Shown: piece by piece, positions 29,461 through 34,021 of the stretch
Numbering within the stretch: the first letter of the stretch is position 1
How the letters are laid out: each line of letters begins with the position of its first letter
Source of the DNA: a bacterium
GTDB taxonomy: Bacteria; Zhuqueibacterota; Zhuqueibacteria; Residuimicrobiales; Krinioviventaceae
DNA: 64,000 bases
NCBI GenBank assembly: GCA_029561455.1
Contig: JAKQIY010000034.1
Span: 62,001-126,000, forward strand
Reading direction: 5' to 3'
Notes under the pieces: generated by a model
The model's input: the letters and a program-made list of their open reading frames with translations, nothing else
Databases searched by the model: none
Told to the model about the DNA's origin: nothing
Position numbers and translations under genes: made by a program

Positions 29461-29592
29461 AGATATACAGCTCGCTCTAAGCATTCCCAGGCGAGTCATG
29501 CGTGCAAAGGCTGTTTCAAGTTGTATTATTCTAAAATGCTGCTTATATTTACATCGGTCAGCAAATCATTAATTTACCCCAGCGGAGAATCC

Positions 29593-30522
29593 ATGAAACC
29601 CATCCCTATTTTTTTACTCTTCGTTTTAACATTATTCACAGCACTCCCGCTTTTCCCGCAAACCCCCGGTGTTGAAAAACAAGTATTTACCTACAAAACC
29701 GTCGACGGCCATGCGGTTAAAGCCAATATATTTATCCCAAAAACAGAAGGTCTGCATCCCGTGGTCATTTACTTTCATGGCGGATTCTTTTTCGGCAACC
29801 GCGACCAGGGACTGCATAGCAGTCTGCGAGAGAAATTACCGGCTGCCGGGTATGCGCTGGTGTCGGCAGATTATCGATTGGCTCCGGAAACCAAACTCGC
29901 CGGCATGCTGCAAGATGTTCAAAATGTAACAACCTGGCTGCGGGTTAACGGCAAGCGGGAATTCAACATCGATCCCGATAAAATCGTGGTATCCGGCGGT
30001 TCGGCCGGCGGCTACCTGGCGCTGACCAGCGGCTTTGATGCCAAAACTGCACCGAATGCCATCGTTGCCATTTCTGCGCCAACCGGATTCACTACCGTTA
30101 CGCCGATGGGGGATTTGTCCGTACTCAACCAACCCGGCCCTTACGATGTAGTGCAGGATTCGACAGTTTCGTATGGCGATTATGATACCCGTATTACCTT
30201 ATGGCGATTTCTGGCCCGCAGCGGTCTGGGGAATTATGAACTGTTCGGCTTTGATCCGGCTGTGCATCCGGAAAAACTGCCGCAATACACCTTGACGGAT
30301 AATGTCACCGCCGCTTATCCACCCGTGTTGTTGATCCATGCCCGCTATGATAACCTGGTCAATTTACAACAGGCGGTTGATTTCAAAGCCTTGTTGGATG
30401 AAAAGCAAGTAGTAAATGAATTGGTGGTTGTGGATAACGGCCATAACGATGAACTGCTTAACCAGAATCCTCAAGTTGTTGATAAAATAATTGCATTTAT
30501 AAATAGCCGGTTTGGCAGATAA
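29593..30522 (+). CDS. Exported alpha/beta hydrolase (HSL-type esterase)
   Basis: 309 residues with a signal peptide (about 1-22, ending LFPQ). The hormone-sensitive-lipase family signature HGGFFFG (oxyanion hole) is near residue 61, nucleophile motif SGGSAGGYLAL near 136, the Asp in HARYDNL near 256 and the His in NGHNDE near 281, so the Ser-Asp-His triad is complete. Likely hydrolyses short acyl or acetyl esters in the periplasm. ATG 29593 is preferred, with GGAG at 29584-29587; the longer frame from 29521 lacks a site. SigZ-like gene follows after 30 bases. Confidence 0.82.
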   Translation: MKPIPIFLLFVLTLFTALPLFPQTPGVEKQVFTYKTVDGHAVKANIFIPKTEGLHPVVIYFHGGFFFGNRDQGLHSSLREKLPAAGYALVSADYRLAPETKLAGMLQDVQNVTTWLRVNGKREFNIDPDKIVVSGGSAGGYLALTSGFDAKTAPNAIVAISAPTGFTTVTPMGDLSVLNQPGPYDVVQDSTVSYGDYDTRITLWRFLARSGLGNYELFGFDPAVHPEKLPQYTLTDNVTAAYPPVLLIHARYDNLVNLQQAVDFKALLDEKQVVNELVVVDNGHNDELLNQNPQVVDKIIAFINSRFGR

Positions 30523-30552: not shown

Positions 30553-31101
30553 ATGCCCCCAACCACAGAATCAATCTGGCAAGCGTGCAGCCAAACCCTG
30601 AAAGTTTTTATTCAGCGTCGCACTAATGATCCCACGCTGGCGGATGATATTTTGCAGGATGTGTTCATCAAGGTGCACAATAATATTGCCGGTGTAAAGG
30701 ATGAGCAGAAAATATGCAGTTGGCTCTACCAGATCACCCGCAATACCATCATCGATTATTACCGCAAACATAAAAAGCTAGAAGGGGAACCCTTGCCTGA
30801 AATACCCGATTGCGAAGAGCCGGATACCGGCGCTGCAGATGAGGTGGCGAACGGCCTGAAGGATATGGTAATGGACTTGCCGGAAATGTATGCGCAGGCG
30901 TTGTTACAGGTCGAGTTTGCCGGTTTGACGCAAAAGGAATATGCGCTAAAGACCGGCATCAGCGTCTCCGGGGCTAAATCGCGTGTGCAGCGCGCCCGGC
31001 AGATGTTAAAGGACAACCTCATGCGCTGTTGCCATTTTGAATTCGACCACTATGGCACGATCATCGACAGTTGTCCCGCCTGTTGTTGTTGTAAAAATTA
31101 A
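30553..31101 (+). CDS. sigZ: ECF-type RNA polymerase sigma factor, SigZ-like, with Cys-rich tail
   Basis: 182 residues. Region 2 is visible as DPTLADDILQDVFIKVHNNI and QKICSWLYQITRNTIIDYYRKHK, region 4 as LPEMYAQALLQVEFAGLTQKEYALKTGISVSGAKSRVQRARQ. The last 26 residues hold seven cysteines (CC near 158 and CPACCCC at the end), the feature that separates SigZ-like factors from other ECF sigmas and suggests direct thiol or metal/metalloid sensing. No anti-sigma factor is adjacent. The next gene is an ArsP-type permease with its own cysteine cluster, so the sigma factor probably controls it. Start is ATG; no strong ribosome-binding site is seen. Confidence 0.85.
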   Translation: MPPTTESIWQACSQTLKVFIQRRTNDPTLADDILQDVFIKVHNNIAGVKDEQKICSWLYQITRNTIIDYYRKHKKLEGEPLPEIPDCEEPDTGAADEVANGLKDMVMDLPEMYAQALLQVEFAGLTQKEYALKTGISVSGAKSRVQRARQMLKDNLMRCCHFEFDHYGTIIDSCPACCCCKN

Positions 31102-31203
31102 ACTCACCCCAATTCGCAATTCACATTATGCGTCCTTTTTGTGGTTTCCTCGTCTCCAGATATGACAGGAAACCATATTTTATTACAAAAAGGAGTAGGC
31201 AAA

Positions 31204-32334
31204 ATGATGGATCAAATCACCCTGGTACTAAACTCTATAATTGCCAGTTTTATACACATCTGGCCTTATTTGTTGATAACCATACCGCTGGCAGTAGCCG
31301 TGCAAATGTCCGGGGCTGCCCGTTATATTAGGCAAGTGTTTCAGGCCAAACCGGTCATCGCAATTTTTCTGGCGACGGCTATAGGAGCATTCAGTCCGTT
31401 CTGTTCCTGCGGAGTCATACCGGTCATTGCCGCTTTGCTCATCAGCGGAGTGCCTCTGGCGCCGGTCATGTCCTTCTGGATTGCATCACCGTCGATGGAC
31501 CCGGAAATGTTCTTTTTGAGCGTCTCCACCCTGGGCTGGAACCTGGCGTTGTGGCGGCTGGGAGCAACCCTGGGTATGAGTCTCGCCGCCGGGTTCATCG
31601 CCCACTTTGCCGTAAAATATAACTGGCTGGGCGATAATATACTAAGAACACAACAAACTCCGCAGGTAAAAAGTTATTCCAAGATGGTAAAGCAATGGTT
31701 CGTCGCCCGTTTAAACAGCATTCAACAGTATACCGGTAACCGGATTTTATTTACACAGCAACAAATATCTGTTGCCGGACCCGATGGCTGCGGCAATAAT
31801 ATTTGCTGTACTGCCGCTGTGAGTTGTGAGTATTTGAATGACTCCCGGTCGGCAGTGAATACGGAACCGGTTCAGGATCAAGCAACGCAGTGCGGCTGTA
31901 ATACTATTTCGCATAATGAATCTTTTATACAACGATTGATACCGGAAATTATTAAATCCACTACGATGGTCATCAGATTCATGACGTTGGCTTTTTTCAT
32001 ACAGGCGCTCATAACATTGTATGTCCCTGCTAATTTGGTAGTTCGGGTGCTGGGCTCCGGCAATGCGTTTTCAATTGTTATCGCCGCTTTGGTCGGCATC
32101 CCGATGTACACCGGCAATATGACGGCCTTACCCATGATGAGCGGCTTGTTGGCGCAGGGAATGAGTCCCGCCGCTGTGCTGGCATTTCTCATCGCCGGGC
32201 CGACCACTACCTTACCGGCAATGGCGGCTGTGTGGGGAATTGCCCATCGCCGGGTGTTCATTCTTTATTTGGGTATCGCCCTGTTCAACGCTTTGTTTTT
32301 TGGTTTTTTATATTATTTTGTAGTGTTGTTGTAA
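31204..32334 (+). CDS. ArsP/PF03773-family permease with cysteine-rich loop
   Basis: 376 residues with about eight to ten membrane segments in two halves. The conserved family motif GAFSPFCSCGVIP is near residue 60, and the matching half-motif GPTTTLPAMAAVWG near 338. The central cytoplasmic loop (about 195-240) carries a cysteine cluster (GC, ICC, SC, QCGC). Related ArsP proteins export trivalent organoarsenicals using cysteine coordination; other family members move unknown ions. Start ATG 31204 (or 31207) with AGGAG at 31191-31195. It lies 102 bases after the SigZ-like gene. The metalloid role is inferred. Confidence 0.85.
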   Translation: MMDQITLVLNSIIASFIHIWPYLLITIPLAVAVQMSGAARYIRQVFQAKPVIAIFLATAIGAFSPFCSCGVIPVIAALLISGVPLAPVMSFWIASPSMDPEMFFLSVSTLGWNLALWRLGATLGMSLAAGFIAHFAVKYNWLGDNILRTQQTPQVKSYSKMVKQWFVARLNSIQQYTGNRILFTQQQISVAGPDGCGNNICCTAAVSCEYLNDSRSAVNTEPVQDQATQCGCNTISHNESFIQRLIPEIIKSTTMVIRFMTLAFFIQALITLYVPANLVVRVLGSGNAFSIVIAALVGIPMYTGNMTALPMMSGLLAQGMSPAAVLAFLIAGPTTTLPAMAAVWGIAHRRVFILYLGIALFNALFFGFLYYFVVLL

Positions 32335-33508: not shown

Positions 33509-34021
33509 TTGACATTAATACTACGAAATATGTCGGCGGATGACTGGCCGGCAGTAAAAGAAATTTATGAGCAGGGTATTGCTACCCATAATGCCACTTT
33601 TGAGAAACATGCGCCGGACTGGGAGCACTGGAACCGTGAACATCTGGCAGTCTGCCGCCTGGTTTGTACAAACAATCACAAATTGGTTGGGTGGGCAGCG
33701 CTTTGCCCGGTATCCAGCCGGTGTGTCTATGAAGGGGTTGCGGAGTTGAGCGTGTATGTCGCTCATGATTACCGTGGACAGGGTGTGGGTAAAATGTTAT
33801 TGCAAAATTTGATTATCGAATCGGAAAAATGCGGGATATGGACGTTGCAGGCCGGCATATTTCCGGAAAATATCGTCAGCATCGAGTTACATAGAAAATC
33901 AGGATTTCGGGTGGTCGGTTATCGCGATAAAATTGGTAAAATGGGAAAATATTGGCGGGATGTGGTACTGCTGGAACGCCGCAGTAAAACTGTCGGAATT
34001 CTCAATCAAAATCGGGAATAA
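33509..34021 (+). CDS. GNAT-family N-acetyltransferase (PAT/YncA-like)
   Basis: 170 residues. The N-terminus LILRNMSADDWPAVKEIYEQGI matches the phosphinothricin/methionine sulfoximine-type acetyltransferases, with the acetyl-CoA loop YRGQGVGKMLL near 87-97 and the C-terminal LHRKSGFRVVGYRDKIGKM block. The family acetylates amino groups of small toxic amino-acid analogues or other amines. The start appears to be TTG at 33509; the only later ATG (33530) would remove the first beta strand. It stands alone before the glycan locus. Confidence 0.82.
   Translation: MTLILRNMSADDWPAVKEIYEQGIATHNATFEKHAPDWEHWNREHLAVCRLVCTNNHKLVGWAALCPVSSRCVYEGVAELSVYVAHDYRGQGVGKMLLQNLIIESEKCGIWTLQAGIFPENIVSIELHRKSGFRVVGYRDKIGKMGKYWRDVVLLERRSKTVGILNQNRE

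Follow-up and report, generated by a model that had tools for sequence, protein, structure and literature searches.

The window analysed here, a stretch of 64,000 nucleotides of bacterial DNA, carries a gene for a SigZ-family ECF sigma factor (30553..31101; all window coordinates are given for the forward strand) followed by the gene for a permease with an ArsP_1 domain (31204..32334), and the reading that we favour, as the rather likelier account of this pair, is that SigZ is a one-component ECF factor whose cysteine-rich tail senses a trivalent (methyl)arsenical and drives expression of the permease. In the proposed mechanism, the cysteine tail would keep SigZ inactive in unstressed cells until its clustered thiols capture a thiol-reactive toxicant, of which a trivalent (methyl)arsenical is the likeliest. 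Toxicant-bound SigZ, together with RNA polymerase, would then start transcription at TGCGTC-N16-CGTC promoters, and the sole exact promoter of this kind in the window's genome would drive the ArsP_1 permease, leading to export of the toxicant. Trivalent arsenicals react with thiols, and it is from this chemistry, the gene company of SigZ and the conservation of its thiols that we infer arsenicals to be the ligand; the tail is the putative sensor and the toxicant the putative substrate of the permease. SigZ would probably be, in other words, a self-contained sensor of arsenic compounds.

The sigma factor gene encodes a protein of 182 amino acids with Sigma70_r2 and Sigma70_r4_2 domains, which scores 189.2 bits against the SigZ model TIGR02959 (cut-off 168.65) and 207.7 bits against a further SigZ model, NF007215 (PRK09637), below its cut-off of 212. 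Among the 21 ECF matches detected genome-wide, it is the only one to exceed the TIGR02959 cut-off. Upstream, an alpha/beta hydrolase gene (29521-30522) is separated from sigZ by a gap of 30 nt, and downstream lies the permease; no anti-sigma factor gene adjoins sigZ between these two flanks. An earlier, sequence-only reading had placed a SigZ-like sigma factor beside an ArsP-type permease and had noted the absence of an anti-sigma factor, and both observations hold, with the two genes at the positions it gave and with matches above the cut-offs of TIGR02959 and PF03773.

The permease (376 amino acids), a predicted SigZ target, scores 149.8 bits against PF03773 ArsP_1 when scanned from 31141 (Pfam gathering cut-off 32.3). 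Its start appears better placed at ATG 31204 than at GTG 31141, since a Shine-Dalgarno sequence, AAGGAG (31190..31195), precedes the former and the latter falls inside the promoter motif described below. The best NCBIfam model is that of the SO_0444 Cu/Zn efflux family, NF033936 (125.1 bits, below the cut-off of 300), and scores were also below cut-off for SaoE, NF040736 (93.8 bits, cut-off 325), and for the arsenic efflux protein arsenic_eff, NF037962 (24.4 bits, cut-off 100). Eight other SigZ-linked permeases reach 82-131 bits against the SO_0444 model. A transmembrane CxC (FCSCG, residues 67/69; 31402..31410) is kept in all 18 SigZ-linked ArsP_1 permeases. The six cysteines that the sequence-only reading had drawn attention to in the soluble loop (31651..31938) are present, but they are not conserved across SigZ-linked permeases, so that the loop can be ruled out as a conserved signature and the transmembrane CxC is the sole common cysteine feature. 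Two genes downstream is a gene (33509..34021) for an ArsN1-like GNAT acetyltransferase (NF040503, 137.5 bits, below the cut-off of 170). No SigZ motif precedes it; GNATs like it neighbour SigZ in 5 of the 80 named loci, against none of 40 ECF paralog controls, and the gene is a possible functional neighbour.

The predicted SigZ promoter (31129..31154) consists of the -35 element TGCGTCCTTT at 31129-31138, a 12-nt spacer and the -10 element CGTC at 31151-31154. The motif originated as TGCGTC-N16-CGTC, common to the region between sigZ and the permease in the window and in the locus L016, and was refined to TGCRTCYTTT-N12-CGTC; a 16-nt spacing to a CGTC -10 element is consistent with ECF promoters. 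The 5.85-Mb genome contains one exact copy, at 31129 ahead of the permease, and four one-mismatch sites elsewhere, whose nearby genes have no evident arsenic link. The window holds no further copies with 0 or 1 mismatch, and no motif with 0 to 2 mismatches was found ahead of sigZ itself.

Three sets of SigZ loci were used: 80 named loci, loci from the phylum to which the window belongs, and a fresh draw from another one, in which 398 genomes of a single phylum gave 27 additional SigZ-like loci (L267, which duplicates L083, was dropped, and L266, which has a broken frame, was counted as a miss). Protein comparisons used 109 SigZ sequences, excluding L266 and the partial L016, L110, L140 and L141. 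As controls we used 40 ECF paralog loci from 24 SigZ genomes, taken by rank and hand spread, among which the paralog G093, located beside SigZ, was not used. The 80 named loci contain 54 exact sites distributed over 47 loci, 52 of them on the sigZ strand, compared with one site for the backwards pattern and an average of 0 in Markov-simulated loci. Allowing a spacing of 11-13 nt gives 62 sites in 50 of the 80 loci and none in the 40 paralog loci. On the sigZ strand and no more than 200 bp from the gene's ends, 37 of 109 loci have an exact copy and 15 more a one-mismatch copy, whereas 80 control windows have neither; the remaining 57 loci lack a motif with 0-1 mismatch in this interval, and several of them carry it further off. 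Exact sites are present in 37 of 50 SigZ-bearing genomes (58 sites versus 6 for the backwards pattern, summed over the table) and in 9 of the 27 freshly drawn loci. Among 60 relatives from the same phylum, the motif occurs in all five SigZ carriers (four over the SigZ cut-off and one cut by a contig end), always beside sigZ, and in 8 of 55 non-carriers, which are at background since the backwards motif has 10 sites (summed) in the same 60 genomes. The distance from CGTC to the start codon has a median of 42 nt, and an ORF starts within 120 nt in 83 of 96 distinct sites. Ten exact sites lie just upstream of sigZ in the named loci, making autoregulation likely in those loci, and a GST-linked SigZ subgroup has a promoter variant starting TTCGTC. 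The shared promoter motif that had been suggested as a check is common across phyla and precedes the window permease, and SigZ itself would be the factor that reads TGCRTCYTTT-N12-CGTC.

Genes that neighbour SigZ or follow the motif belong mostly to arsenical or thiol-stress functions (ArsM, ArsP_1, ArsI, ACR3, ArsN-like, GST, GshA and C-S lyase), and the arsenical company of SigZ extends across many phyla. Neighbours and targets in the 80 named loci include ArsM (23), ArsP_1 (10), ArsI (10), ACR3 (5), DUF2703 (5) and ArsN-like proteins (5). At least one of these six families is found within about 6 kb in 49 of 80 SigZ loci and in none of the 40 ECF paralog loci, a comparison that is post hoc because the families were picked from the SigZ loci themselves; in 31 of the 80 loci all six are absent. 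This concern is eased in part by the fresh draw: with neighbour profiles built from SigZ loci and applied at 0.6 of their thresholds, 14 of the 27 loci lie within about 1.5 kb of ArsP_1, ArsM, ArsI or ACR3 and 6 more are near a GST family member. Several assignments exceed family cut-offs, including ArsM (376 and 350.9; cut-off 263), ArsI/CadI (145.9; 116), ACR3 (379.5; 282.8), GshA (500.9; 393.3) and PatB C-S lyase (349; 340). The ORFs that come first after the motif encode SigZ, ArsM, DUF2703, ArsP_1, ArsI/CadI, GST with cysteine-rich ends, PatB C-S lyase and GshA, among others. Motif sites also precede genes without an evident link (PAP2, LysE and a hydrolase), and some sites are likely to reflect chance.

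DUF2703-type cysteine-rich proteins are located beside SigZ in L072, L077, L083, L087, L039 and L010, several of them behind the motif, and may be regarded as candidates for arsenical handling. GST-like proteins are encoded next to SigZ or after the motif in L256, L257, L258, L260, L265, L269, L114, L128, L187 and L190, which belong to gammaproteobacteria and relatives; some end in extra cysteines and some have the TTCGTC variant. In L068 (6649-8061), ArsM is fused to a second methyltransferase-like domain in one protein. SigZ is also found on plasmids, for which six records, annotated by others, were examined among 18 matches. In the Ideonella record, SigZ is inside an ars operon with the order HTH gene, ArsI, ArsC, ArsC, ACR3, SigZ, permease, thioredoxin, ArsA, and the motif is ahead of the permease. 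According to the record annotation, ArsC and ACR3 are about 2 kb from SigZ on the Hymenobacter plasmid, and thioredoxin and permease genes directly follow SigZ on the Arenibacter plasmid. No annotated ars genes were found near SigZ in the Priestia, Rhodococcus and Vibrio cortegadensis plasmid records; on the Priestia plasmid the motif precedes a divergent aldo/keto reductase gene.

The cysteine-rich C-terminal tail of the window SigZ (31027..31098) comprises C159, C160, C174 and C177-C180, confirming the seven cysteines previously counted in the last 26 residues (157-182). Across the 109 aligned SigZ proteins, cysteine occupies window position 160 in 107 proteins, position 159 in 91 and position 180 in 74, and the feature that we derive here for membership of SigZ, a CC pair after region 4 plus a C-terminal cysteine, is present in the window protein as C159, C160 and C180. 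A linker cysteine at window position 101 is found in 85 of the 109 proteins, the window residue being glycine. The tail contains at least three cysteines in 98 of 109 proteins, two or fewer in 11 and zero in none, and the last 30 residues contain at least three in 85. By comparison, among 54 lower-scoring ECF ORFs of the fetched loci, a set that includes duplicates, the last 30 residues have no cysteine in 38, one in 7, two in 2 and five in 7, the last group being mostly another cysteine-tailed ECF family. An ECF family of the window's phylum, seen in L012, L014, L036, L044 and L062, ends like CRVCAxHGCLDCTC, a tail unlike that of SigZ, and in a proteobacterial subgroup (L271-L282) SigZ-like tails have the arrangement C...CC instead of CC...C, with three thiols kept in most. 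These counts indicate that the tail exceeds chance and is a feature of the SigZ family which is enlarged in the window's clade, rather than the mark of a sigma factor/permease pair for which it had been taken.

An AlphaFold2 model of the window SigZ (73 sequences; mean pLDDT 87.8, pTM 0.54, at which domain orientation is unreliable) has the sigma-4 helix followed by a beta-hairpin (160-164/170-175), with pLDDT of about 84 at residues 161-170 and 72 at residues 171-180. Judging from the strand positions in this model, the CC pair and the terminal cysteine would face each other. The gene pair recurs with the same tail type in L009, L016 and L066. SigZ of L144, beside an ArsP_1 permease, has one tail cysteine, as does that of L281, beside ACR3; these two proteins argue against a strict cysteine requirement, and so does the glycine at the linker position in the window.

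At the junction with the permease, a long, tentative inverted repeat (31120..31209) would let the surroundings of the -35 element base-pair with those of the Shine-Dalgarno sequence. The window RNA from before the -35 element to the start codon is predicted to fold so that the Shine-Dalgarno sequence is buried (-30.6 kcal/mol, z -4.55), whereas RNA from just after the -10 element gives a weak fold. The same hairpin is predicted in the relatives L009 (z -4.00) and L016 (z -5.29), with matching inverted repeats in the RNA folds at L009:2135-2228 and L016:256-349, and weakly in L066 (z -1.56); in the consensus of four sequences, 3 of 13 pairs are changed on both sides. As a general SigZ feature the hairpin found no support, 24 motif junctions having a mean z of -1.00 compared with -0.79 in 109 others (Mann-Whitney p 0.20). 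Tentatively, and as a secondary idea, the predicted hairpin is strong in the window's clade only, and read-through transcripts alone would have their ribosome site masked by it; a transcript started by SigZ would be without the upstream strand of the hairpin.

In the tree of 109 SigZ proteins, the one from the window clusters with those of L009 and L066 (support 100/94), all of them permease-linked, and the sister pair L067/L068 carries ArsM (97/73, under the strict support mark). The ArsP_1 neighbour label requires 14 changes on this tree, at least 10 of the changes being forced by well-supported branches, which implies that permease linkage was made or lost repeatedly; shuffled labels give a mean of 16.0 changes, so the linkage is weakly clustered. 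The window's genome has four ArsP_1 proteins, and the window permease gene alone among them has the exact motif. Its one ArsM over the cut-off is encoded away from sigZ, beside an ArsR-like gene, and no motif precedes this arsM by exact or one-mismatch search. With the sole exact motif at the window permease, SigZ appears to run one exporter in this genome, beside ArsR-type control elsewhere.

The sequence-only reading is partly upheld: the recurring pair, the motif, the arsenical neighbours and the absence of an anti-sigma factor speak for it, but as stated it finds no support in the loop cysteines or in a pair-specific tail. A rival account would have SigZ sense general thiol-redox or electrophile stress, arsenicals being one inducer of several and the tail a switch thrown by redox change or alkylation. 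In its favour, motif copies in Vibrio and Ferrimonas precede genes for a PatB-type C-S lyase, GshA, a symporter-family protein and GSTs, and the GST family is near SigZ in 7 of 80 named and 6 of 27 fresh loci; yet the arsenic-directed ArsM, ArsI, ArsP_1 and ACR3 dominate, SigZ of the Ideonella plasmid is inside an ars operon, and glutathione genes also serve arsenical defence. We consider it unlikely.

About as improbable is the suggestion that the tail has the structural role of a zinc knuckle and that SigZ is controlled through its own transcription, by autoregulation, ArsR or an upstream operon. The compact hairpin of the AlphaFold2 model, the ten exact motif sites just upstream of sigZ and the recurrence of ArsR-like genes near SigZ are in keeping with it. 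On the other hand, the window sigZ has no motif ahead of it and lies 30 nt behind the hydrolase gene, and the conserved tail and linker cysteines resemble those of CorE (PMC8999054). Less likely still is a soft-metal sensor (for Cu, Zn or Cd, say), in which case SigZ would drive a metal exporter of the SO_0444 type and the permease loop cysteines would carry the metal. CorE, which senses copper (PMC8999054), would be a precedent, and the SO_0444 Cu/Zn efflux model is the best NCBIfam match of the permease at 125.1 bits; this score is nevertheless far under the cut-off of 300, as are the 82-131 bits of the eight other SigZ-linked permeases, and none of the recurrent SigZ neighbour clusters could be recognised as a family for resistance to copper or zinc. 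Our preferred reading remains that of an arsenical-sensing SigZ driving the permease. Its extension, in which SigZ is a phylum-spanning arsenical sensor with direct binding by tail thiols and a TGCRTCYTTT-N12-CGTC regulon, and in which -35/ribosome-site pairing silences read-through in the window's clade and leaves translation to the transcripts begun by SigZ, is put forward more cautiously, as falling somewhat short of probable.

With a motif and a gene set that hangs together around defence against arsenicals and thiol toxicants, the role of SigZ becomes testable in several lineages. If the reading is true, bacteria can activate their arsenic defence by way of a sigma factor devoted to it, in addition to relying on ArsR repressors, and unknown genes behind the motif (DUF2703, PAP2 and the GST variant) become candidates for roles with arsenicals. 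The SigZ family (TIGR02959/NF007215), which includes Bacillus subtilis SigZ and which the window protein matches over its full length including the CC...C tail, is already named, yet no inducer, promoter or regulon for it was found in the literature searched (on SigZ, ECF factors and ars operons), and passages of PMC8999054, PMC3107203, PMC12607644 and PMC3022917 contain no link between SigZ and arsenic, an earlier mention being possible; a signal, a promoter and a regulon are proposed here.

The precedent for the mechanism is provided by the Myxococcus xanthus factors CorE and CorE2 (ECF44/ECF238), which, like SigZ, have no anti-sigma factor and a cysteine-rich C-terminal extension, one that in their case responds to metal (PMC8999054). 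In CorE/CorE2 (PMC8999054), the C-terminal cysteine-rich domain and a CXC in the sigma2-sigma4 linker are needed for activity, the linker CXC holding as a criterion for the former ECF44 only; the window SigZ has no such CXC. SigZ differs in belonging to another sigma family and in its proposed signal, arsenicals, and would work like them in outline. The window permease resembles the ArsP methylarsenite permease in its ArsP_1 domain and transmembrane CxC, and SigZ loci likewise bring ArsM, ArsI and ArsN-like company, but it has an extra cysteine loop and scores 24.4 of 100 bits for arsenic_eff. Its best curated matches, SO_0444 (NF033936) and SaoE (NF040736), fall far below their cut-offs of 300 and 325. 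Finally, ArsR-controlled ars operons have the same kinds of target genes, and ArsR-like genes are found near some SigZ loci; those operons are repressed, however, whereas SigZ, an alternative sigma factor, would switch its targets on from a promoter dedicated to it.
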